From contig JAUHYW010000012.1 in the NCBI GenBank assembly GCA_030426085.1, forward strand, positions 66,425-130,424: DNA of 64,000 bases, read 5' to 3'. The position numbers and the translations under genes were made by a program. The stretch's first letter is position 1, and every line of letters begins with the position of its first letter. The DNA is from a bacterium. Lineage in GTDB: Bacteria; Myxococcota_A; Bradymonadia; UBA7976; UBA1532. The notes beneath the pieces were generated by a model that ran no database searches, had not been told where the DNA came from, and was given only the letters and a program-made list of their open reading frames with translations. Shown piece after piece: positions 29,807-42,269 of the stretch.

Positions 29807-31303
29807 TCACCCGGCCCGGTCGGGCCGATCCCGGTCGGCGTCCAGCTCGCGTCGGACCCGGACCAGCGCTCGCCGCAGCGGGCCCATGCCCGGGAATCGC
29901 GCGTCGGGCGCCCGGGCGAGGCAGCGGGCGACGATCGCGTCGACGGCGGGCGGCAGGTCGGGCCGCAGCTCCGACGGGACCGGCGCGTCCTCGGCGGTCT
30001 GGCGCACGACCCGGGTCAGCGGCGCGTCGCCCTCGAACAGCTCGTGTCCGGTCAGCGCGAAGTAGAGGGTCGCCCCGACCCCGTAGACGTCGGCGGCCTC
30101 GCCCCCCGCCTCGCCCCGGGCGCGCTCGGGCGCGAGGTAGCCCGGGGTGCCGGTCAGGCCCTCCGGCCGGCCGCCGGGGGCATCCATGAAGCGGGCGAGG
30201 CCGAAGTCGAGCACCTTGGCGTGCTCATCGGGCGGCGCGCCGCACACGACGATGTTCTCCGGCTTGATGTCCCGGTGCACGACGTCGGCGTCGTGGGCCG
30301 CGGCCAGGCCCGCGCAGCACTGCGCCGCCACCTCGAGCGCGCGCCGGAGCCCGAGCGGCCCTTCGCGGCGCACGATGGTCCCCAGGTCGTGCCCGTCGAG
30401 CAGCTCCATCGCATAGTACGGCCGGCCCTCGTCGGTGCGGCCGACGTCGTAGACCTGCACGACGTGCGGGCTGCGCACCCGCAGCATGGCCCGGATCTCG
30501 TCTTCGAAGGTGTCCAGGGCGTCCCCGTCGCCGCCCGGGGCAGTGAGGATCTTGACCGCGCACGCCCGCCCCAGGTGGCGGTCCCACGCCCGGTAGACGA
30601 TGCCGAAGCCGCCCCGCCCCAGCTCGCCGCCCAGCCGGTAGCGATCCTGACTGCGGGCGCGGATCGCGTCACTGAAGAGCTGCTCCATGCGCCGCGCGCC
30701 GTAGATCGCCAGCGCCAGGTTGGCCAGCAGGATGACCAGGGTGCTGGACAGCATCGCCGGCTCGAGCGGCGCGGGGGAGGCGCCCGCGTAGCACACCGCC
30801 GCCGCGGCCCACGCCGAGAGCGAGCCGATCAGCGCCTGCCACCAGCGGCTGCGCACCATCAGGCAGCGGGCGAACACCAGCGTCGAGACCCCGCCCAGGT
30901 AGAGCGCGGCTTCATAGAGCGGCGCGAGGGCGGCGAACGCGCCCAGCATGGCCCCGCCGGCGAGGTGGCTCGCCGCGTCGATGGCCAGCAGCCGCCGTGA
31001 AGCCGGCCGCCGGGCGGGCTCGGCGAGCAGCGACAGGGCCCCCAGAAAGCCCCCGTAGAACAGGCGGATCAGGAGCAGGGCCCACAAGGCCCGCCCGCTG
31101 GGCCGCTGCAGCTCGGCCAGGATCTCGATCGCGCCGAAGAGCACGAAGACGACCGCCGCGACCCGCAGGAACCGGCACAGCGTCTCGGCGTAGCCCAGCT
31201 TCGACGCGCTGCGGATGCGGCGGGAGATGTCGTCCGACAGGCGGGCGTCGGGCCGCCCGTCGGCGAGGTCGTCCGGTGCGGCCACGGGTTCTGGAGGGTG
31301 CAT
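29807..31303 (-). CDS. Ser/Thr protein kinase with N-terminal multispan membrane domain
   Basis: A 498-residue kinase. The N-terminal half (about 45-205) contains about six hydrophobic spans, an unusual position since most bacterial Hanks kinases place their single span after the kinase domain. The kinase domain (about 215-475) has LGRGGFG, AVKIL, HRDIKPENI, DFGLARF and GTPGYLAPERARG, so it looks active. It begins 33 bases after the FAAL-ACP gene on the same strand and may be in one transcript with the lipid-synthesis genes. The membrane part could sense envelope or lipid state; this is inference. Confidence 0.88.
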   Translation of the reverse strand: MHPPEPVAAPDDLADGRPDARLSDDISRRIRSASKLGYAETLCRFLRVAAVVFVLFGAIEILAELQRPSGRALWALLLIRLFYGGFLGALSLLAEPARRPASRRLLAIDAASHLAGGAMLGAFAALAPLYEAALYLGGVSTLVFARCLMVRSRWWQALIGSLSAWAAAAVCYAGASPAPLEPAMLSSTLVILLANLALAIYGARRMEQLFSDAIRARSQDRYRLGGELGRGGFGIVYRAWDRHLGRACAVKILTAPGGDGDALDTFEDEIRAMLRVRSPHVVQVYDVGRTDEGRPYYAMELLDGHDLGTIVRREGPLGLRRALEVAAQCCAGLAAAHDADVVHRDIKPENIVVCGAPPDEHAKVLDFGLARFMDAPGGRPEGLTGTPGYLAPERARGEAGGEAADVYGVGATLYFALTGHELFEGDAPLTRVVRQTAEDAPVPSELRPDLPPAVDAIVARCLARAPDARFPGMGPLRRALVRVRRELDADRDRPDRAG

Positions 31304-31336: not shown

Positions 31337-33448
31337 TCAAGCTTCGCTCAGCAGGTGGTCCACCAGCCCGCTCAGATCCCGGTGCTGATGCAGCAGGTCC
31401 GCCGGCAGCGCCCGGCCCAGCTTCTCCTCGAGCGCGTCGACGAGCTGCACCGCCACCAGCGAGTCCACCCCCAGCGAGGCGAACGGCGCGCCCCCGCGGA
31501 GCTGCGCGGCCAGCGGGCCCGGCGCCCGGCCCAGCTCGCGGGCCAGGGTCGCGACCATCCACGCCTCGAGCCGGGTCGCCGCCGGATCCCGACGGCCCGG
31601 GGCTGCGGCCGGCGCCGTCGGCGCGTCCGCGAGCAGATCCCGGGCGAGCACCGTCATCGAGCCGCCGGCGAAGCCCGCGGTGAACGCCGCCCGGCAGGCG
31701 AAGCGCATCACCTTGCCGCTCGAGGTCTTGGGCAGGCTGCCCTTGGCCAGCAGCACCACCCCGTACACCTCGACCCCGTGGGCCTCGGTGACCGCCGCCC
31801 GCATGAGCGCCGCCGCCCGCCGCGGGTCGTGGTCCGGCGCCCGCCGGGGGTCGACCTCCTGGCAGACCACCAGCCGCTCGCGCCCGTCGACCTCGACCGG
31901 GAACGCCGCCGCGCAGCCGGGCCGCAGCTCGGGCAGCCGGGCCCGCAGGCCGTCGAGGGTGTGCTCGACATCGTGGGGGTAGAGGTTGCGCCCCCGGACG
32001 ATGATCACGTCCTTCATGCGCCCGGTGACATACAGCTCGCCATCGTGCACGAAGCCCAGGTCGCCGGTGCGCAGGAACGGCCCCTCGCCCTCGGCCCCGA
32101 CGACGCGGCCCCCGAACGTGCGCCCGGTCTCCTCCGGCCGCTGCCAGTAGCCCGCCGCGATGTGGGGCCCCGCCAGCCAGATCTCGCCCACCGCGCCCGG
32201 CGCGGCCCGGCGGCCGGTCTGCGGATCGACGACCTCGATCACCCCCTCGGCCCAGGCCACCCCGCAGCTCACCAGATCGACCCCCTCGGCCGCCTCGTCC
32301 ACCGGCTGCACCCGGTGCTGCTCGAGCGCCGCCGCGTCGACCCGCAGCCCGCCGCCCCGCCGCTCGGCGCGGGCGCACGAGACGAACAGCCCCACCTCGG
32401 CCATGCCATACGACGGGGTCACCACCCCCGGGCGCAGGCCGGCCGGGGCGAAGTACGCCTCGAAGCGCCGCACGGTGGCCCGCCGCACCGGCTCGGCCCC
32501 GTTGACCATGACCGTCAGGCGGCTCAGGTCGAGCGCGTCGCGCACCGCGGCCGGCGTCTTGCGCACCGCGAGGTCGTAGGCGAAGTTCGGCGCGGCGGTG
32601 ATGGTGCCCCCGACCCGGCTCACCAGCGCCAGCCAGCGGGACGGCGCCCGCAGGAAGACCCCCGGCGGCATCAGCCAGCTCTCGGCGCCCAGCCCCAGCG
32701 GGTTGAGCAGCTTACCCACCAGACCCATGTCGTGATACAGCGGCAGCCAGCTCACGAAGACCGAGTCACTCGACAAGCCATACGCCGCCCGGGACATGGC
32801 CAGGTTGGCCCAGATACCACCGTGGGTGACCATGACCCCCCGGGGCCGGCCGGTGGAGCCCGAGGTGTATTGCAGGAAGGCCACCGTGTCGGCCGTGAGC
32901 GATGGCATCTGCCAGTCATCGGGGTCCGCGTCGCCGGTCTGATCGGGCGTCAGCCAGGTCAGCTCGGCGAGCGCGCCGGCCTTCGACTTCGCCAGGATGC
33001 CTTCGGCGAAGCCCCGGATGAGCGGCGAGGTCAGCACCACCGACGGATCGGCGTCGGCGACGATGCCTTCCAGGCGGGCCAGGGTGTGGGCCATGCGATG
33101 CGGCTCGGGGGGGTAGGCCGGCACCGGCACCACCCCCGCGAAGAGGCAGCCGACGAACGCGACGACGAAGTCCAGCCCCGGCTCGAAGACGAGCAGCGCC
33201 CGCTCGCCAGCGAGGCCGTCGGCCTGAAGCCGGGCGGCGAGGGCCCGCACCGCCCGGTCGAACCCGCCGTAGGTCAGCGCGGCGGTCTCGTCCTGCCCGT
33301 CGGCGAGGAAGGTCAGCGCCCGCCGCTCGGGCTGCGTCTCGGCGAAGTGGCGGATCGCTTCGACGAGGTCGCCCGGCGGGGCCGACGTCGCGGTGAACGG
33401 CAGGGTGGAGGCGGACGGACGGACGGCGTCGTGGTGGATCTGGAACAT
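31337..33448 (-). CDS. Fatty acyl-AMP ligase fused to acyl carrier protein
   Basis: A 703-residue two-domain enzyme. The adenylating domain (about 25-590) has LQYTSGSTGRPRGVMVTH, LPLYHDMGLVG, SYGMAE and GDLGFVHDGELYVTGRMKDVIIVRGRN. These are hallmarks of fatty acyl-AMP ligases (FAAL), which activate fatty acids for an ACP rather than CoA. The C-terminal about 75 residues form a carrier domain with LGVDSL, Ser663 being the phosphopantetheine site. It should load an acyl chain on its own ACP. The upstream gene, 64 bases away, encodes an alpha-oxoamine synthase fused to a GNAT, the natural user of that acyl-ACP. The start has GGGAG upstream. Confidence 0.9.
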   Translation of the reverse strand: MFQIHHDAVRPSASTLPFTATSAPPGDLVEAIRHFAETQPERRALTFLADGQDETAALTYGGFDRAVRALAARLQADGLAGERALLVFEPGLDFVVAFVGCLFAGVVPVPAYPPEPHRMAHTLARLEGIVADADPSVVLTSPLIRGFAEGILAKSKAGALAELTWLTPDQTGDADPDDWQMPSLTADTVAFLQYTSGSTGRPRGVMVTHGGIWANLAMSRAAYGLSSDSVFVSWLPLYHDMGLVGKLLNPLGLGAESWLMPPGVFLRAPSRWLALVSRVGGTITAAPNFAYDLAVRKTPAAVRDALDLSRLTVMVNGAEPVRRATVRRFEAYFAPAGLRPGVVTPSYGMAEVGLFVSCARAERRGGGLRVDAAALEQHRVQPVDEAAEGVDLVSCGVAWAEGVIEVVDPQTGRRAAPGAVGEIWLAGPHIAAGYWQRPEETGRTFGGRVVGAEGEGPFLRTGDLGFVHDGELYVTGRMKDVIIVRGRNLYPHDVEHTLDGLRARLPELRPGCAAAFPVEVDGRERLVVCQEVDPRRAPDHDPRRAAALMRAAVTEAHGVEVYGVVLLAKGSLPKTSSGKVMRFACRAAFTAGFAGGSMTVLARDLLADAPTAPAAAPGRRDPAATRLEAWMVATLARELGRAPGPLAAQLRGGAPFASLGVDSLVAVQLVDALEEKLGRALPADLLHQHRDLSGLVDHLLSEA

Positions 33449-33512
33449 GGGATGACTCCCGATGGGATGGATGTGAAGTCGAAAGAGCGCGGCGCGGCGG
33501 TGACCGTCGGGC

Positions 33513-35945
33513 TCAGCGGTGGCCGTCGACGGCCATCGCCTCGATGACCATGTGATTGAAGAGATCTTCGGTCTGCACGAAGGCGCAGGTGGCGTGGGGC
33601 CGGGCGCCGACCTTCTTCTTCTCGAGCTCGGCGGTGTAGGCGAGGTCGAGGCGGTCGCAGTCGAGCTGCCGGGCGCGCATCACCGTGCGATACAGCGCCT
33701 GCTTGTAGGTGTTGTGGCTGCGCTGCACCGCGCCGTCGAGGCCCACGATCAGGGCCCCGTACAGCCCGCCGCCCACGTAGCTGAACATCACCGCCGCCGG
33801 CTCCGGCCGGCCGTCGAGGGACAGCCGCATCACCTCGTAGTCCGGGTGGCGGCACATCGCGGCGAAGAACCGGCGGGGCAGGGGGAAGACGTTGAGGTCG
33901 AAGCTGCGGGCGTGCACCTCGCGGTACAGCGCGTAGCAGGCGTCGATGTCGGCCTCGGTCTCGGGCGCGTCGAAGGTCACCCCGAAGGCGTCGGCGTAGG
34001 GCAGGATCTCCTTGCGCACGTTGTACCGGTAGCGGCTGCCGAGGGTCTTCATCCAGCCGTCGTGATCAGCCCAGGTCAGGTCGCGCACCTGCATGCTGTC
34101 GCCGAGGCCGAGCTGCACGAAGCCCTGGTCGAGCAGGTGCTGGCGCAGCGCCTCGTCGGCGTCGACCTCGAACTCCCGCAGCATGATCTGGTTGGCCGCG
34201 CTCGCCGCGCGCACCTCGCCCATGACCCCCAGCAGCGCGTCGAGGGCCGCCTTCCACTCGGGGTGGTCCCGGTCGAGGAACAGGTGCTCGCCCTTGGTGA
34301 TCAGGCCGCCGAGCATCACCGCCTTCGAGGTCAGGTCGTAGGGGTCGTCGGCCCGCATCGCCTCGATCTGCTGCGAGATACGGCCCGGCGCGGTCATGTC
34401 GTCCTTGACCAGCGCCACGGTGAACATCGTCGCCAGCACCAGCGCGCCCTCGGCGTCGCGCACCCGCAGGTAGTGGAAGTCCCAGAGGTTCTCCGGCGCG
34501 TCGTCGACCGAGAACACCTGCTCGAGCATCGCGAGGCTGGCGTGGGACAGGTTGCCCCGGCCGGCGAAGATGGGATCCCACTCGGCGGCGGGGATGGCGT
34601 CGATGGCGCGATCGTGGGTGACGCTCAGCCTCGCGGCCGGCGCGGCCGACGTCGCCCCGACGTCGGGCCGCAGGCCGGCGGTGTCCTCGTCCAGCTCGAA
34701 CGCCCGCAGCACCTCGCGCAGCGAGCTGCCCTCCTCGGCCAGCGCCCGGGGGTAGTGATAGGCCACCCGCTCGAGCAGCGCGTCGACGTCGGCGATCGTC
34801 AGGTTGCGGTTGAGCATGAACCGCAGCCCGCCCTGGCGCATCGGGGTGGCGGGGAAGGTCGCCATGTTCACGTAGAACCCGTCGTCGAGCAGCCGCCGCA
34901 CGAGGTTGCCCACCACCCGGGGCAGCCCGGTGGGGATGAAGAACAGCGGGCTGCGGGTGACCCGGTACTGGGGCAGGCCCAGCGCGGCGATGCGCCGGTT
35001 GCAGTGGTCGACGAGGTGCATCAGCTCGGCCTGCATCGCCGGCATCTCGTCGCTGAGGTGCAGCCGGGCCGCCGCCAGCGCCGCGCCCAGCATCGGCGGC
35101 TGGATGGGCCCCGAGAAGATCATCGTGCCCCCGGTGTTGCGCACCCGGTCGGCCATGCGCTGGTTCGGGAAGACGACGCAGCCCCCGGCGGCGGCGAACG
35201 CCTTGTTCAGCGAGACGGCGAGCACCAGCTTCTCGTGATGCTCGACCGCGCCCCGCACCGCGCCGCAGCCGTGGGGCCCGGCCCAGCTCATGCCGTGGGC
35301 GTCGTCGACGTAGCAGTGCAGCGCGGGGTAGCGATCCATCAGCTCGACGAGGCGGTCCATCGGCGCGACGTCGCCGAACATCGAGTAGACCCCGTCGGCC
35401 ATGTACCAGATGCGGGGGTGGCGGTTCTGCAGGCGGCGGATCTTGCGCTCGAGCTGATCCATGTCGTTGTGCCGGACGACGTGCAGCGGCACCCCCCGGG
35501 CTTTGACGAGCTGAGCGGCGGTCTGCACGCTGTGGTGCACCTGCAAGTCGAGGATGACCGCGTCGTCGTCCCCCACCACGCCGGGGATGGCCGACATGTG
35601 GCCCAGGGTGGTCGAGGCGCTGATGAGCAATGGTCGCTCGAAGATCTGCCCCAGCAGGCGCTCCAGCTCGGCGTAGAGCCCCAGCGAGCAGAACGCCCGC
35701 GACGACGAGAACTGGGTCCCGTAGCGCATCGCCGCCTCGGCCGCGCCCCGGGCGAGGGCGGGGTGGGTCTCGAAGCCCATGTAGCTGCACGACCCGAAGT
35801 TGATCATCGACCGGCCCTCGAGGCCGATCGATCTGCCGTCGAGCGGGGTGTCGTCGGTGTAGTGCAGGGCCAGATCGCGGCGGATGAAGTCCTGGGCCAT
35901 CTGGTCGAGGATGTCGGCGGTGGAGTCGCGGGCTTCGCGGGACAT
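33513..35945 (-). CDS. Serine palmitoyltransferase-like alpha-oxoamine synthase fused to GNAT acyltransferase
   Basis: An 810-residue fusion. Residues about 45-430 are a PLP enzyme of the alpha-oxoamine synthase family (BioF, KBL, HemA, SPT): HHSV (His138), DDAHG (Asp214, His217) and SLNKAF (PLP Lys248). The 31-residue His-to-Lys spacing equals that of Sphingomonas SPT (H234/K265). Residues about 460-810 resemble GNAT/FemAB-type acyltransferases of the BioF2-like group, with RYRYNVRKE and SHNTYKQALYRTVMRARQL. The likely chemistry is decarboxylative condensation of an amino acid with an acyl thioester, then N-acylation, as in bacterial ceramide synthesis by Spt and bCerS. CqsA-like signal synthesis is the alternative. 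I chose the ATG at 35945; a longer frame adds 25 residues. Confidence 0.8.
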   Translation of the reverse strand: MSREARDSTADILDQMAQDFIRRDLALHYTDDTPLDGRSIGLEGRSMINFGSCSYMGFETHPALARGAAEAAMRYGTQFSSSRAFCSLGLYAELERLLGQIFERPLLISASTTLGHMSAIPGVVGDDDAVILDLQVHHSVQTAAQLVKARGVPLHVVRHNDMDQLERKIRRLQNRHPRIWYMADGVYSMFGDVAPMDRLVELMDRYPALHCYVDDAHGMSWAGPHGCGAVRGAVEHHEKLVLAVSLNKAFAAAGGCVVFPNQRMADRVRNTGGTMIFSGPIQPPMLGAALAAARLHLSDEMPAMQAELMHLVDHCNRRIAALGLPQYRVTRSPLFFIPTGLPRVVGNLVRRLLDDGFYVNMATFPATPMRQGGLRFMLNRNLTIADVDALLERVAYHYPRALAEEGSSLREVLRAFELDEDTAGLRPDVGATSAAPAARLSVTHDRAIDAIPAAEWDPIFAGRGNLSHASLAMLEQVFSVDDAPENLWDFHYLRVRDAEGALVLATMFTVALVKDDMTAPGRISQQIEAMRADDPYDLTSKAVMLGGLITKGEHLFLDRDHPEWKAALDALLGVMGEVRAASAANQIMLREFEVDADEALRQHLLDQGFVQLGLGDSMQVRDLTWADHDGWMKTLGSRYRYNVRKEILPYADAFGVTFDAPETEADIDACYALYREVHARSFDLNVFPLPRRFFAAMCRHPDYEVMRLSLDGRPEPAAVMFSYVGGGLYGALIVGLDGAVQRSHNTYKQALYRTVMRARQLDCDRLDLAYTAELEKKKVGARPHATCAFVQTEDLFNHMVIEAMAVDGHR

Positions 35946-36181
35946 GGGCACCTCGGGTGGAGAAAGCGTTTTCGTCGAGAGTATTTGCCCGGCTCCGGCG
36001 CGAACCGGTCCGAGCGGCAACCCGTGAGGCGCGATTTCGGGCAGGACTCCGCAATGAACCGGAGCCCCGACCCCCGCGGCGGCCCCCCAGGGCTACCCGA
36101 CACCCGCCCGTATGTGGGATGCGGGGCGGGCCGGGACGTGATACGCCAGACCCATCACGATCTCCGCGGCGGGGGAGCGAC
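35946..36181. promoter_or_regulatory. Divergent spacer between oxoamine synthase and ethanolamine permease genes
   Basis: This 236-base spacer must hold promoters for both genes. The stretch 35960-35990 (GAAAGCGTTTTCGTC, AGTATTTG) is AT-richer than its surroundings and contains AAAGCGTTTTCG, a short near-palindrome that could be an operator. I could not fix a -35/-10 pair. Confidence 0.35.
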
Positions 36182-37651
36182 ATGGGCGAGCACGAGCCGG
36201 CCGGCGTCCGATACGAGGCCGTCGACCAGGACTACTTCGACAAGCGCGGCCTGCGGCGCTACGCCGGGGTGTGGTCCCTGTGGGCCCTGGGGGTCGGCGC
36301 GGTCATCTCGGGCGACTTCTTCGGCTGGAACTTCGGCCTCGCCGTCGGCGGCTTCGGGGGGCTGCTCGTCGCCACGGTGATCATCACCGTGATGTACGCC
36401 GGCCTGTGCGCCTGCATCGCCGAGATGAGCCCCGCGCTGCCCCACACCGGCGGGGCCTATTCGTTCGGGCGCTCGACCATGGGCCCGTGGGGCGGCTTCG
36501 TCACCGGGCTCGGCGAGAACATGGAGTACGTCATCACCCCGGCGGTCATCGTCGTGGGCATCGGGGGCTACCTCGGCGCCGTCTTCGAGACCCCCGACGC
36601 CTTCGCCCCGGTGTGGTGGTTCGTGGCCTACGTGCTCTTCGTCGGCCTGAACATCGTCGGCGTCGAGATGACCTTCCGCTTCACCGTCTTCATCACCTTC
36701 GTGGCCCTCGCCATCCTGGCGGTGTTCTTCGTGGGCGCCATCCCCCTGTTCGAGTGGGAGCATGCGTTGAACGTGCCCCCCGACCCCGGCCAGAGTCAGT
36801 GGCTGCCCAAGGGGTGGCTCGGGGTGGCCCATGCCTTGCCGTTCGCCATCTGGTTCTTCCTGGCCATCGAGGAGCTGCCGCTCGCCGCCGAGGAGGCCCA
36901 CGACCCCAAGCGGGACATGCCCCGGGGCATCCTGCTGGGCCTGCTGACGCTCATCATCACCGCGTTCGCCACGCTCTTCCTCAACGCCGGCATCGCCCCC
37001 GGCGCGGCGGCGGTCGGCGCGAGCGAGGAGCCCTTGTTCCTGGCGTTCGGCACCATCTTCGGCGAAGGCCTCGGCAGCAAGGCGCTGGCATTGTTCGCGG
37101 TCGCCGGTCTCATCGCCAGCTTCCATGGCATCATCTATGCCTATGGGCGCAACATCTACTCGCTGTCCCGGGCGGGCTACTTCCCCCGCTGGCTCTCGGT
37201 GACCCACGCGACCCGCAAGACGCCGCACGTCGCCCTCATCGGCGGCGCGGCGCTGGGCTACGCCGCTGCGCTGGTCATCCACTACGCCGGCGGCGGCAGC
37301 TCGGTGGGCGCGGTGCTCATCAACATGGCGGTGTTCGGGGCCATGATCTCGTATGTCATGCAATGCGTCGCGTTCGTGATCCTGCGCCGCAAGCACCCCC
37401 ACATCGAGCGCCCGTTCAAGAGCCCCCTGGGCGTGGCCGGCGCGGTCGTGGCCCTGATCATCGCGCTGGGCACGCTGGCGTTCCTCTTCCTCAACGACGA
37501 CTACCGCCCGGGTGTCATCGGCGCCGCGATCTGGTACGCCGCGGGGCTCTTGTGGTTCGGGCTCTACGCCCGCAAGCGCATGGTGCTCGCCCCCGAAGAG
37601 CAGTTCGCCATCGACGCGATGCGATCGGCCGGGCCGCAGAAGGAAGGGTAG
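36182..37651 (+). CDS. eat: Ethanolamine permease (APC family)
   Basis: A 489-residue inner-membrane transporter with about 12 spans. Its N-terminal region (YFDKRGLRRYAGVWSLWALG, VISGDFFGWNFGLAVGGFGG, HTGGAYSFGRSTMGPWGGF, ENMEYVITPAVIVVGIGGYL) is typical of the ethanolamine permease subfamily of APC amino-acid transporters. Uptake of ethanolamine is therefore the best guess; no eutBC genes are in view. The start is the ATG preceded by GGGGGAG. It is divergent from the sphingolipid-like operon, which may mean shared control, though this is unproven. Confidence 0.85.
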   Translation: MGEHEPAGVRYEAVDQDYFDKRGLRRYAGVWSLWALGVGAVISGDFFGWNFGLAVGGFGGLLVATVIITVMYAGLCACIAEMSPALPHTGGAYSFGRSTMGPWGGFVTGLGENMEYVITPAVIVVGIGGYLGAVFETPDAFAPVWWFVAYVLFVGLNIVGVEMTFRFTVFITFVALAILAVFFVGAIPLFEWEHALNVPPDPGQSQWLPKGWLGVAHALPFAIWFFLAIEELPLAAEEAHDPKRDMPRGILLGLLTLIITAFATLFLNAGIAPGAAAVGASEEPLFLAFGTIFGEGLGSKALALFAVAGLIASFHGIIYAYGRNIYSLSRAGYFPRWLSVTHATRKTPHVALIGGAALGYAAALVIHYAGGGSSVGAVLINMAVFGAMISYVMQCVAFVILRRKHPHIERPFKSPLGVAGAVVALIIALGTLAFLFLNDDYRPGVIGAAIWYAAGLLWFGLYARKRMVLAPEEQFAIDAMRSAGPQKEG

Positions 37652-38966: not shown

Positions 38967-39896
38967 TCAGGCACTCATCAGCCGGGTGCGGCGCAGGTGG
39001 GTCATGGTGGCGTCGAGGTCGTGGGCCGGGGCGAAGCCGAGCACGTCCCGGGCCCGGGCGCCGTCGACCATGCAGACATAACGCAGGTGATCCAGCTCCG
39101 GCGCGGGGAAGCGGGCGAGCCGCAGGGCCCACGCCTTGTCGAGCAGGGTCTCGGCGAGCGGGTGGGGGATCGGGCGGGGCCGGCCGCGGGCCATCTCGAT
39201 GAGCACGCTCAGCGGCGCCGGGCGGCAGCCGGGCAGGTTGAAGACCCCCCGGATGCCCGGCCGCAGCGCCTCTTCGATGGCCCGGGCCACGTCGTCCTCG
39301 TGGATGAGCTGCACCATCGGGTCGAAGCCGGCGAGGGTCCACGGCCGGCGCAGCCGCAGGTAGTTGCTCGGCGCGTTGTTCACCGCCCCGACGATGTGCA
39401 CCGGGCGCAGGATGACCGTCTCGACGTCGGGGTACTTCCAGAAGAAGCTCTGCCCGAGCATGTCGACCGCGATGAGTGATCGGATGTCGCTGAAGCGCTC
39501 CCCACCCATCAGCGGGGCGTCCTCGGTGAGGAACTGGGTGTTGTCGGCCCGGGGGCCGTAGACGTTGGCGCTGCTCATCAGGACGAGCTTGCCGATGCCA
39601 TGCTTCTGGCAGTACTCGACCACCCGGGCGGTGCCCTGCACGTTGAAGGTGTAGTGATCGGCGCTCGACGCCCGCAGGTCGTGCATCAGGTTGAGGTGCA
39701 CCACCGCGTCGAAGCCACCCCCCCGGAAGATGGCTTCGCTGCGCTTGCGGCGGATGTCGATGCGGTGCACCTCGACGTCGGCCGGGGCCCGGTTGAACGG
39801 GCGCCGGTCGAGGCCGACGACGGCGTGGTGCCGGTGCAGCCGGCGAGCGACCCGGGCTCCGAAGCGGCCGCTGATGCCGGTGAGGGCGATCCTCAT
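38967..39896 (-). CDS. NAD-dependent epimerase/dehydratase (extended SDR)
   Basis: A 309-residue extended short-chain dehydrogenase. The N-terminal Rossmann motif is TGISGRFGARVARRL. MSSANVYGP supplies the SDR serine, and the HIVGAVNN region follows. The usual YxxxK tyrosine is not evident, so chemistry is uncertain. It overlaps the PlsC-type gene by four bases, a pairing seen in many bacteria (such as mycobacterial Rv0501/Rv0502). In Caulobacter ceramide synthesis an epimerase-family enzyme (CerR) reduces the 3-keto group. This one could play that part for the synthase encoded 3 kb away, but the link is inference. Confidence 0.8.
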   Translation of the reverse strand: MRIALTGISGRFGARVARRLHRHHAVVGLDRRPFNRAPADVEVHRIDIRRKRSEAIFRGGGFDAVVHLNLMHDLRASSADHYTFNVQGTARVVEYCQKHGIGKLVLMSSANVYGPRADNTQFLTEDAPLMGGERFSDIRSLIAVDMLGQSFFWKYPDVETVILRPVHIVGAVNNAPSNYLRLRRPWTLAGFDPMVQLIHEDDVARAIEEALRPGIRGVFNLPGCRPAPLSVLIEMARGRPRPIPHPLAETLLDKAWALRLARFPAPELDHLRYVCMVDGARARDVLGFAPAHDLDATMTHLRRTRLMSA

Positions 39897-40750
39897 CGGA
39901 ACCAGCCCTTGCGCTCGATCAGGCCCCGCCGCAGCAGGCCGTCGACCGCGTCCCGCACCACGCCCACCCGGGCCGCGATCTCGGCCTCGTCGTCGTCGGG
40001 GTCGCCGATGAACGTCAGCGGGCGGCCGAAGTAGATCCGGTACTTGACCGGCAGCGGCAGCAGGCCCAGGCCCGGGACGAGCGGGTTGAGCGGCACCGGC
40101 ACCGCCGGCAGCCCGAGCGCCTTGGCCACGCCCGTCAGGTTCCACGGGGTGGGGTACTGCTCCTCGGCGCCGACGACGCCCACCGGCACGATGGGGGTGT
40201 TCGTCTCGAGCGCCAGCCGCATGAAACCGTGGCCGAAGGCCTGGAGCTCGTAGGCGTGGTCCCAGGTCTTGTTGATGCCCCGCACGCCCTCGGGGAAGAC
40301 GAGCACCGGGTGCTCTTCGCGCAGCAGCGTGCGGCAGTTCTCGGGGGTGCCGAGCACCTGCCCCAGCCGGCTGAAGAAGACGCTGACGAAGGGCAGCGAG
40401 GGCACCCACCGCTCGACCATCGAGCGCACCGCCCGCGGCGGATCGGCGTCGAGGATGAGCGCGGTGGCGATCATCATCGCGTCGATGGGCACCTGGCCGC
40501 TGTGGTTGGCGATGAGCAGCACCCGACCCGGCGGGATGTGCTCGAGGCCGATGGGCTCGACCCGGAACCAGCGGCGGTAGACCTGCTCGACCACCGGCAC
40601 GACGTACTTGATCTGCTCGGGGGTGAAGCCGAAGTCGTCCGCCGGGCGGTCGCCGATGGCCGCTTGCAGCTCGTCGATGCGGTCGAGCAGCTCCGACGGC
40701 AGCCGGCTGTCGACCGCTTCGACCAGGATGTCCTGCAAGGCGCTGAGCAT
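39893..40750 (-). CDS. PlsC-like lysophospholipid acyltransferase
   Basis: A 285-residue acyltransferase of the PlsC/LPLAT superfamily. It has LIANHSGQVPID, a variant of the HX4D block in which the Asp stands seven residues after the His, FPEGVRGINK as the substrate-binding block, and PIVPVGVVG. It probably acylates a lysolipid or related alcohol at the inner membrane. It overlaps the epimerase gene by four bases. The ATG at 40750 precedes the conserved region; much longer frames upstream run into a divergent gene. Confidence 0.85.
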   Translation of the reverse strand: MLSALQDILVEAVDSRLPSELLDRIDELQAAIGDRPADDFGFTPEQIKYVVPVVEQVYRRWFRVEPIGLEHIPPGRVLLIANHSGQVPIDAMMIATALILDADPPRAVRSMVERWVPSLPFVSVFFSRLGQVLGTPENCRTLLREEHPVLVFPEGVRGINKTWDHAYELQAFGHGFMRLALETNTPIVPVGVVGAEEQYPTPWNLTGVAKALGLPAVPVPLNPLVPGLGLLPLPVKYRIYFGRPLTFIGDPDDDEAEIAARVGVVRDAVDGLLRRGLIERKGWFR

Positions 40751-40841
40751 GGGGGCGATTCTGGACGGTGCGCGGCCGGCGCGCAACCGGCGTGCATCGG
40801 GCGGCGCGGCGGGGCACGATCGACGCGACGGGAGGTGCAGC

Positions 40842-42269
40842 ATGCGCGCGTGGCGACGGGTCGTGATCGGATGGGCGCTCGCGCTGGCCGGGTGCGGGCT
40901 GCGCTCGGGCGACGCGCCGGGGCCCGTCGAGCGGGTGGACGCGGCGGTTCGGGCAGCGGTGATCGACGCGGGCGACGGACCCGACGCGGGCGATGGACCC
41001 GACGCCGTTGCCGGGGAGCGCTGCGACGGCATCGACGACGACGGCGACGGGCGGACCGACGAGGGCTTCGCGGTGGGCGCGGCCTGCTTCGCCGGCCGGG
41101 GTGCCTGTCGGGCCGAGGGGGTCATGGCCTGCGCCCCGGAGAAGGGCACCGCCCGCTGCGTGACGATCGGGGGCGGCGCGCCGTCGGCCGAGGTCTGCGA
41201 TCGGGTGGACAACGACTGCGATGGCCGGCTGGACGAAGGCTTCGCGGTGGATGAGATCTGCGGCGTGGGGCGGGGCGCGTGCCGCTCGACGGGGCTGGTG
41301 GCGTGCGGCGACGACGGCCTGCCCTACTGCGCGGCCGATCCGCCCCAGCGGCCGGCAGCCGAGTCCTGCGATGGCATCGACGATGACTGCGACGGGTCCA
41401 TCGACGAGGACTTCGGCATCGGGCAGCCATGCGCCGCGGGCCTCGGCGCCTGCCGGGCCGAAGGCGTGACGGTGTGCCACGGCCCGGACGCCGCCCGGTG
41501 CGACGCGACGCCCGGCGTGCCATCGGACGAGATCTGCGATGGCATCGACAACGACTGCGGCGGGGCGGTCGACGAGCGGTGGGGGCTGGGCCGCTATTGC
41601 AGCGTCGGGCGGGGCGGCTGCTGGGTCGAGGGGGAGCGGATCTGTGATGAAGAGACCGGGCGCACCCGCTGCAGCGCCGAGTGGGGGGCGCCCGCGGATG
41701 AGGTGTGCAATGGCATCGACGACGACTGTGACACCTGGACCGACGAGGACATGCCGCCCGGGCTGGCGTGCGCGTGCCGGGACGGGGCCTGCGCGCTGCG
41801 CCCGCTGGCCTGCGCCGACGTGCCGATTGAAGACTGCCCCGACGAGCCCGGCTGCGCGGTCTGGACCCGCCGCTGGTGCCGTGACGACTGCGCGCCGATC
41901 TGCGCGCTGGCCCTCGAGAAGTGCCGGGGGCAGAGCTTCAGCACCTGCCAGCAGGAGCCCAACTGCCGGTGGCACGTCGACGAGGTGGAGTGCCCCGATC
42001 CGGTGCCGGGGGTGCGCCACCGGGGCTGCTTCGATCCCCGGGAGCGGTGCTGGCCGGCCGATCGCCACTGCGAATCCCTGGACCGGGTGCTCTGCCAGCG
42101 GGATCGGGCGTGCGAGTGGGAGACCCGCCAGGTCTGCCCCGACTGGGCCCCGGACTGCTGGTTCGAGCCGCGGGACGATGGCTGCCCATGCCTCGACCGG
42201 CTCTCGTGCATCGAGATGGACGATGCCTGTGACTGGGTCGGGCGCTGCGTGTATGCCCGCGGCGAGTGA
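40842..42269 (+). CDS. Lipoprotein with MopE-type metal-binding repeats
   Basis: A 475-residue precursor with lipobox LALAGC (Cys about 18). Five repeats of a C-D-x-I/V-D-D/N-D-C/G-D-G-x-x-D-E pattern lie between about 60 and 310. These are the MopE/PF11617-type putative metal-binding motif found in copper-binding MopE and many myxobacterial surface proteins. The C-terminal third (about 320-475) is rich in Cys and Trp with CxxC and CxWxxR units. It is probably an extracellular metal-binding or disulfide-rich surface protein. The ATG has GGAGG seven bases upstream. Confidence 0.85.
   Translation: MRAWRRVVIGWALALAGCGLRSGDAPGPVERVDAAVRAAVIDAGDGPDAGDGPDAVAGERCDGIDDDGDGRTDEGFAVGAACFAGRGACRAEGVMACAPEKGTARCVTIGGGAPSAEVCDRVDNDCDGRLDEGFAVDEICGVGRGACRSTGLVACGDDGLPYCAADPPQRPAAESCDGIDDDCDGSIDEDFGIGQPCAAGLGACRAEGVTVCHGPDAARCDATPGVPSDEICDGIDNDCGGAVDERWGLGRYCSVGRGGCWVEGERICDEETGRTRCSAEWGAPADEVCNGIDDDCDTWTDEDMPPGLACACRDGACALRPLACADVPIEDCPDEPGCAVWTRRWCRDDCAPICALALEKCRGQSFSTCQQEPNCRWHVDEVECPDPVPGVRHRGCFDPRERCWPADRHCESLDRVLCQRDRACEWETRQVCPDWAPDCWFEPRDDGCPCLDRLSCIEMDDACDWVGRCVYARGE

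Follow-up and report, generated by a model that had tools for sequence, protein, structure and literature searches.

In Caulobacter and E. coli BL21, the ligase AasR and the acyl carrier protein (ACP) AcpR feed the alpha-oxoamine synthase (AOS) Spt, with an N-acyltransferase next; the bacterial ceramide N-acyltransferase (bCerS) family is represented in E. coli BL21 by YghO (PMC9386255). CC_1154 is another bCerS. BioF2 (Rv0032) is described as an AOS outside biotin synthesis, of unknown function, that carries an additional N-acyltransferase-type domain at its N-terminus, and Rv0032 has been called restricted to the M. tuberculosis complex (PMC12910592, PMC6923341). A natural AOS fusion, BioWF, is present in Corynebacterium amycolatum and Desulfosporosinus orientis (PMC9544090), while the product of another AOS, CqsA, is detected by a kinase (PMC3285556). 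For AOS–GNAT fusions other than BioF2, we found nothing in the open literature. Here, we describe a locus in which such a fusion is encoded next to a fatty acyl-AMP ligase (FAAL) with its own ACP.

Domain organization of the gene pair

The window, i.e., the entire 64,000-nucleotide stretch analyzed, contains two adjacent genes on the minus strand; the host genome of both comprises 10.1 Mb in 178 contigs and, judging from its relatives, probably belongs to Myxococcota. The first gene (P0001; 33513..35945) encodes an AOS–tandem-GNAT fusion of 810 aa, as supported by its ORF, Pfam matches, a 44-member full-length family, and an AlphaFold2 (AF2) model with a pLDDT of 90.8. After a spacer of 64 bp (33449..33512, minus strand), it is followed by a gene (P0002; 31337..33448) for a FAAL–ACP fusion of 703 aa, as supported by its ORF, Pfam matches, and the ranking of NCBIfam models. 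Thus, as the initial annotation had proposed, four predicted activities are merged into two proteins, AOS with GNAT and FAAL with ACP.

Within the single ORF of the larger protein, Pfam matches to Aminotran_1_2 (residues 46-394, E 9e-26) and Acetyltransf_6 (PF13480; residues 637-770, E 7e-14; 52.7 bits versus a gathering cut-off of 22) bear out the proposed joining of an AOS to a GNAT-type acyltransferase. The AOS domain (34764..35810, minus strand) is supported by Pfam, invariant columns, and a phylogenetic tree. H137, D214, H217, K248, and R375 are invariant in an alignment of 44 fusion homologues, a few rows of which may represent the same genome twice. These residues include the PLP-stacking His137 (codon 35535-35537, minus strand), the PLP lysine Lys248 (codon 35202-35204, minus strand), and the carboxylate-binding Arg375. 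Accordingly, three of the four catalytic residues named previously (Asp214, His217, and Lys248) hold, while the fourth, His138, does not: the stacking histidine is H137, and position 138 is outside the invariant list and is occupied by Asn in relatives. With the fold type I PLP residue set present, the protein belongs to the AOS superfamily, and its structure matches AOS entries with TM scores (target) of 0.84-0.90.

The FAAL domain of the second protein (residues 28-600; 31649..33367, minus strand) contains an AMP-binding match (residues 33-435, E 2e-68) and is 32% identical to E. coli BL21 AasR. FAAL-type NCBIfam models outscore CoA-ligase models on this ligase, and an alignment with E. coli FadD revealed a FAAL-specific insertion (residues 360-391; 32276..32371, minus strand) that FadD lacks and the role of which has been described (PMC8460268). 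The ACP domain (residues 630-699; 31352..31561, minus strand) matches PP-binding (PF00550) with E 5e-11, and its phosphopantetheine serine is Ser663 (codon 31460-31462, minus strand). The earlier identification of the downstream neighbor as a FAAL with its own ACP, including Ser663, is therefore confirmed.

A gene for a membrane Ser/Thr protein kinase (29807-31303, minus strand) lies 33 bp past the FAAL–ACP gene. As candidate pathway parts, this kinase and a permease (35957-37651) were set aside because a congener, which shares only the two genes and not the flanks, does not keep them; in the congener, cysS follows the FAAL–ACP gene at the position of the kinase. Farther away in the window, an NAD-dependent epimerase-type (SDR) gene (38967-39884, minus strand) adjoins a gene for a PlsC-like acyltransferase (39893-40876, minus strand). 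Considered as the missing CerR reductase, this SDR showed no similarity to CerR, and based on this comparison, no CerR-type reductase lies beside the gene pair.

Relationships of the AOS and GNAT halves

The AOS half scored below the cut-off of every equivalog model tested, and the same was observed throughout the fusion family. The best equivalog match was to PRK07505 (NF005697; 229 bits, cut-off 342), followed by the models for bioF (168 bits, cut-off 426) and CqsA (79 bits, cut-off 428), while the three models for serine palmitoyltransferase (SPT) gave 147, 136, and 106 bits versus cut-offs of 500, 640, and 670, respectively. As a positive control, E. coli BL21 Spt scored 599 bits with the SPT model that has a cut-off of 500. 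Three AOS genes of the host genome (C114 and two of C116) scored 260-289 bits with this model, also below the cut-off and all above the score of the fusion. In a tree covering the Alb29/PRK07505, BioF, Kbl, and SPT lineages, the sister group of the AOS half is Alb29/PRK07505 (support 100/99), and E. coli BL21 Spt and the SPTs of Bacteroidota are placed with BioF and Kbl. Forcing the fusion and the SPTs into one clade was rejected (AU test, p 7e-8). Judged by sequence, the AOS half is a branch neighboring PRK07505 rather than a member of PRK07505, and the initial description of this half as SPT-like is not supported.

Acetyltransf_6 matches 29 of the 44 fusion family members at E 0.01. In the AF2 model, which has a pLDDT of 94.9 for the C-terminal half alone, the GNAT half exceeds the Pfam span and forms a tandem GNAT at about residues 440-805 (33531..34628, minus strand), an assignment supported by Acetyltransf_6, the model, and PDB comparison. 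Lys776 and Gly780, within an E-K-x-K-x-G-A motif, are invariant. Because a search of the PDB by sequence gave only chance matches for this half, we compared folds. The top match was FemX (6snr; Z 23.1, rmsd 4.4 over 302 residues), accompanied by the aminoacyl-tRNA peptide synthases Sba18 and Sbb17 (Z 23.0 and 22.7, respectively); N-myristoyltransferases came next with Z about 17. FemAB_like (PF04339) gave only 20 bits with the window protein, below its cut-off of 27. Judging from the model, the shared fold is compatible with different donors and does not settle which one the GNAT half uses.

YghO gave neither a blastp nor a profile match with the GNAT half and itself matches no Pfam family, Acetyltransf_6 included. 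The GNAT half had been likened to a Caulobacter-type ceramide synthase; instead, it lacks detectable similarity to bCerS/YghO and has a FemX-like fold. The initial annotation had also named, as a result that would speak against its sphingolipid-type reading, a grouping of the PLP half with BioF or Kbl and of the GNAT half with FemA/FemX. The GNAT half indeed goes with FemX in fold, but the PLP half falls outside both BioF and Kbl. We note that further genomes from this family and class encode relatives of the GNAT half that have no AOS partner (L033 in G006, L130, L131, L132, and L133); inspection by eye of these five loci revealed no recurrent neighbor.

Distribution and genomic neighborhood of the fusion

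Among 58 relatives, two carry the full fusion: a genome from the same genus (77% identity) and another from the same class (45%). A scan of species genomes identified 51 loci and, together with genome searches, yielded the 44 full-length fusions that align end to end. They are distributed over Myxococcota, Bacteroidota (Ferruginibacter, Crocinitomix, and Saprospiraceae), Actinomycetota (Blastococcus, Geodermatophilus, Motilibacter, and Actinoplanes), and Bacillota (Paenibacillus). AOS-only relatives in Dactylosporangium are nested inside the fusion clade and probably lost the GNAT half, as suggested by their position in the sequence tree; those of two other myxobacterial MAGs lie near the base of the clade. 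This wide distribution together with the AOS-only relatives indicates a fusion family that is old, mobile, or frequently lost, and not a one-off. A plasmid search returned only matches to the AOS half at <60% identity, with no record covering 80% of the fusion protein, and a search of viral contigs identified no relatives of the fusion.

Both genes are present in the congener genome, with the 77% identical fusion, and in the isolate Enhygromyxa salina SWB007; hence, the gene pair is neither a chance arrangement nor a MAG artifact. In total, FAAL and ACP adjoin the fusion in four genomes: as FAAL–ACP in the window, the congener, and Enhygromyxa, and with the domains reversed (ACP–FAAL) 9 bp downstream of the fusion at L039. 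This adjacency in two arrangements, and its recurrence at Mycobacterium-like GNAT–AOS loci (see below), supports the earlier idea that the fusion works together with FAAL and ACP. At most fusion loci outside Myxococcota, no FAAL or ACP was found nearby, and therefore an acyl-ACP of its own is not a universal requirement of the fusion. In Blastococcus, the fusion comes after a menA-like gene at L068, L072, and L073 (names read by eye), and it may for this reason share a transcript with menaquinone genes; at L073, an AMP-ligase-like gene also precedes it.

Two Mycobacterium-like genomes of 5.6 Mb (G558 and G437) encode a protein with the reversed order GNAT–AOS of 810 and 831 aa (L199, 6336-8765, and L200, 4067-6559), followed by genes for an ACP, a short SnoaL-like protein, and a FAAL. 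The genus includes at least 396 genomes, the sampled members of which pass the FadD32 model, and we infer that it is Mycobacterium. This layout matches the order Rv0032 (bioF2)-acpA-Rv0034-Rv0035 (fadD34), which we take to be that of M. tuberculosis. The two loci are thus BioF2-like, despite the reported restriction of Rv0032 to the M. tuberculosis complex. A small genus (G181; 37 genomes) has an SPT-like AOS, and no BioF2-type fusion was present among its matches listed. The Mycobacterium-like GNAT is homologous to that of the window (hhalign probability 98.2%, E 5e-14), while the AOS comes from the BioF/Kbl/SPT side, and a single clade with the window family was rejected (AU test, p 2e-5). 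Because the GNATs are homologous and the AOS halves are of different lineages, the same set of parts came together on at least two occasions. This recurrence with AOS halves of separate lineages ties AOS, GNAT, FAAL, and ACP to one another functionally far more firmly than their proximity in a single genome could.

Other fusion loci have regulatory neighbors. In 24 Bacteroidota loci (L040-L055, L062, L064, L069, L074-L076, L081, and L085), a DUF7793 gene is divergent from the fusion, and on sufficiently long contigs, DUF7793 is followed by genes for a PAS-HisKA_3 kinase and a NarL-type regulator. These loci count as one or a few events because of shared descent. Pfam identified PAS, HisKA_3, and HATPase domains in the Bacteroidota kinase and no membrane sensor. 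In Enhygromyxa, genes for a LytS-type kinase and a LytTR regulator are located directly upstream of the fusion, and kinases or regulators also adjoin it at L059, L063, L070, and L038. Neither two-component genes nor DUF7793 were found near the gene pair in the window or the congener. Such neighbors are consistent with two readings, a signal synthase accompanied by its receptor and a lipid gene under stress regulation.

A predicted acyl-aminoketone assembly line

We suggest, with a probability of roughly 55%, that the two genes encode a minimal acyl-aminoketone assembly line in which the FAAL loads the ACP, the AOS condenses, and the GNAT half N-acylates. Specifically, the FAAL would activate a free fatty acid as acyl-AMP and load its own ACP at Ser663. 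In a PLP-dependent decarboxylative condensation, the AOS half would then join an acyl thioester, most likely the FAAL-loaded acyl-ACP, and an amino acid to an alpha-aminoketone, the free amine of which would be acylated by the C-terminal tandem-GNAT half to give an N-acyl-alpha-aminoketone. On chemical reasoning, this N-acylation may trap an otherwise self-condensing aminoketone and stop its dimerization. The predicted product would be shaped like 3-keto-ceramide, although made by enzymes outside the SPT and bCerS families. By analogy to the logic in Caulobacter, the sequence FAAL, ACP, AOS, and N-acyl transfer would be the simplest flow; that the AOS takes its acyl group from the ACP, that the GNAT half is the N-acyltransferase, and that its donor is acyl rather than aminoacyl are inferences. 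Among the products that the initial annotation had listed (a ceramide, a sulfonolipid-like compound, or an acyl amino ketone signal), the acyl amino ketone appears to be the best option based on the sequences.

The closest folds, FemX and Sba18/Sbb17, are aminoacyl-tRNA dependent, and consequently the GNAT half may draw on a donor other than a fatty acyl thioester. Were the C-terminal half a FemX-like transferase adding an amino acid to the aminoketone, the product would be lipopeptide-like. Beyond these best structural matches, however, FemAB_like remains under its cut-off, the acyl-CoA-dependent N-myristoyltransferases have the same double-GNAT fold, and the accompanying FAAL/ACP pair suits acyl thioesters; we consider this alternative improbable. 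The modeled fold, which includes enzymes that use acyl thioesters, would itself count for an acyl donor. A true sphingolipid pathway, with the AOS as serine palmitoyltransferase, the GNAT half as ceramide synthase, and a reductase encoded elsewhere finishing the ceramide, is very improbable: the AOS falls outside the SPT clade and far under the SPT equivalog cut-offs, the GNAT half is not detectably similar to YghO/bCerS, the nearby SDR is not CerR-like, and YghO does not match Acetyltransf_6, even though the parts equal those of the Caulobacter/E. coli BL21 aasR-acpR-spt-aca set minus the reductase, the PLP residues are intact, and the FAAL part shares identity with AasR.

The regulatory neighbors raise the question of whether the product is a secreted autoinducer of the acyl-aminoketone type that is read by a partner two-component system, as in CqsA/CqsS or LqsA/LqsS-LqsR. 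That CqsA is an AOS with a product sensed by a kinase (PMC3285556) makes this attractive for the 24 Bacteroidota loci, for the LytS/LytTR pair of Enhygromyxa, and for the four further loci with adjoining kinases or regulators. Yet the pairs in the window and the congener have no such neighbors, the Bacteroidota counts reflect shared ancestry, a kinase without a Pfam membrane sensor may simply regulate the fusion gene, and the AOS is not a CqsA, so that an autoinducer has some plausibility but is on balance unlikely. More speculatively, and with lower odds, the AOS–GNAT fusions of four phyla might make a new class of N-acyl-aminoketone signals read by adjoining two-component systems, with mycobacteria having built an equivalent, the BioF2 locus, independently.

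Returning to the acyl-aminoketone assembly line, if correct, it would represent a compact two-protein route by which N-acylated aminoketone lipids are made without members of the SPT or bCerS families. That these four parts were combined repeatedly, with AOS halves of different lineages, would also tie the orphan BioF2–AcpA–FadD34 set of M. tuberculosis to a testable reaction via the non-pathogenic homologues in Enhygromyxa, Ferruginibacter, and Blastococcus. The combination of AOS, GNAT, ACP, and ligase alone cannot identify bacterial "sphingolipid genes". Overall, the set of parts looks like a real, unstudied lipid or signal factory and not a standard sphingolipid pathway.

Among known systems, Alb29 of Streptomyces albogriseolus (PDB 8XHA) is the nearest solved AOS by sequence (E 1e-34) and is also among the nearest in structure; it was crystallized with L-glutamate according to the title of the PDB entry. 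Alb29/PRK07505 enzymes stand alone, whereas the window AOS is fused to a GNAT. CqsA, the synthase for the Vibrio alpha-hydroxyketone autoinducer, shares with the fusion the AOS family and, with relatives of the fusion, two-component neighbors, but the window fusion matches its model poorly (79 bits). To our knowledge, CqsA is not fused to a GNAT. The Caulobacter/E. coli BL21 set (aasR-cerR-acpR-spt plus yghO) resembles the window in combining a FAAL-type ligase, a dedicated ACP, an AOS, and an N-acyltransferase; it differs in that it consists of five separate genes, including the reductase, has its Spt in another AOS clade, and uses a bCerS not detectably related to the window GNAT. In BioWF, as predicted for the window, the AOS is joined to an enzyme of its own pathway, but there the fused enzyme is an acyl-CoA synthetase that precedes the AOS in the biotin pathway (PMC9544090), while that in the window is an acyltransferase predicted to act after the AOS. 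BioF2-type loci, for which the comparison is based on the Mycobacterium-like L199 and L200 rather than on the M. tuberculosis Rv0032 sequence itself, likewise combine an AOS and a homologous Acetyltransf_6 GNAT in one protein and have genes for ACP and FAAL next to it. They differ from the window in the reversed domain order, the AOS lineage, and the separate ACP and FAAL genes with a SnoaL-like protein encoded between them.
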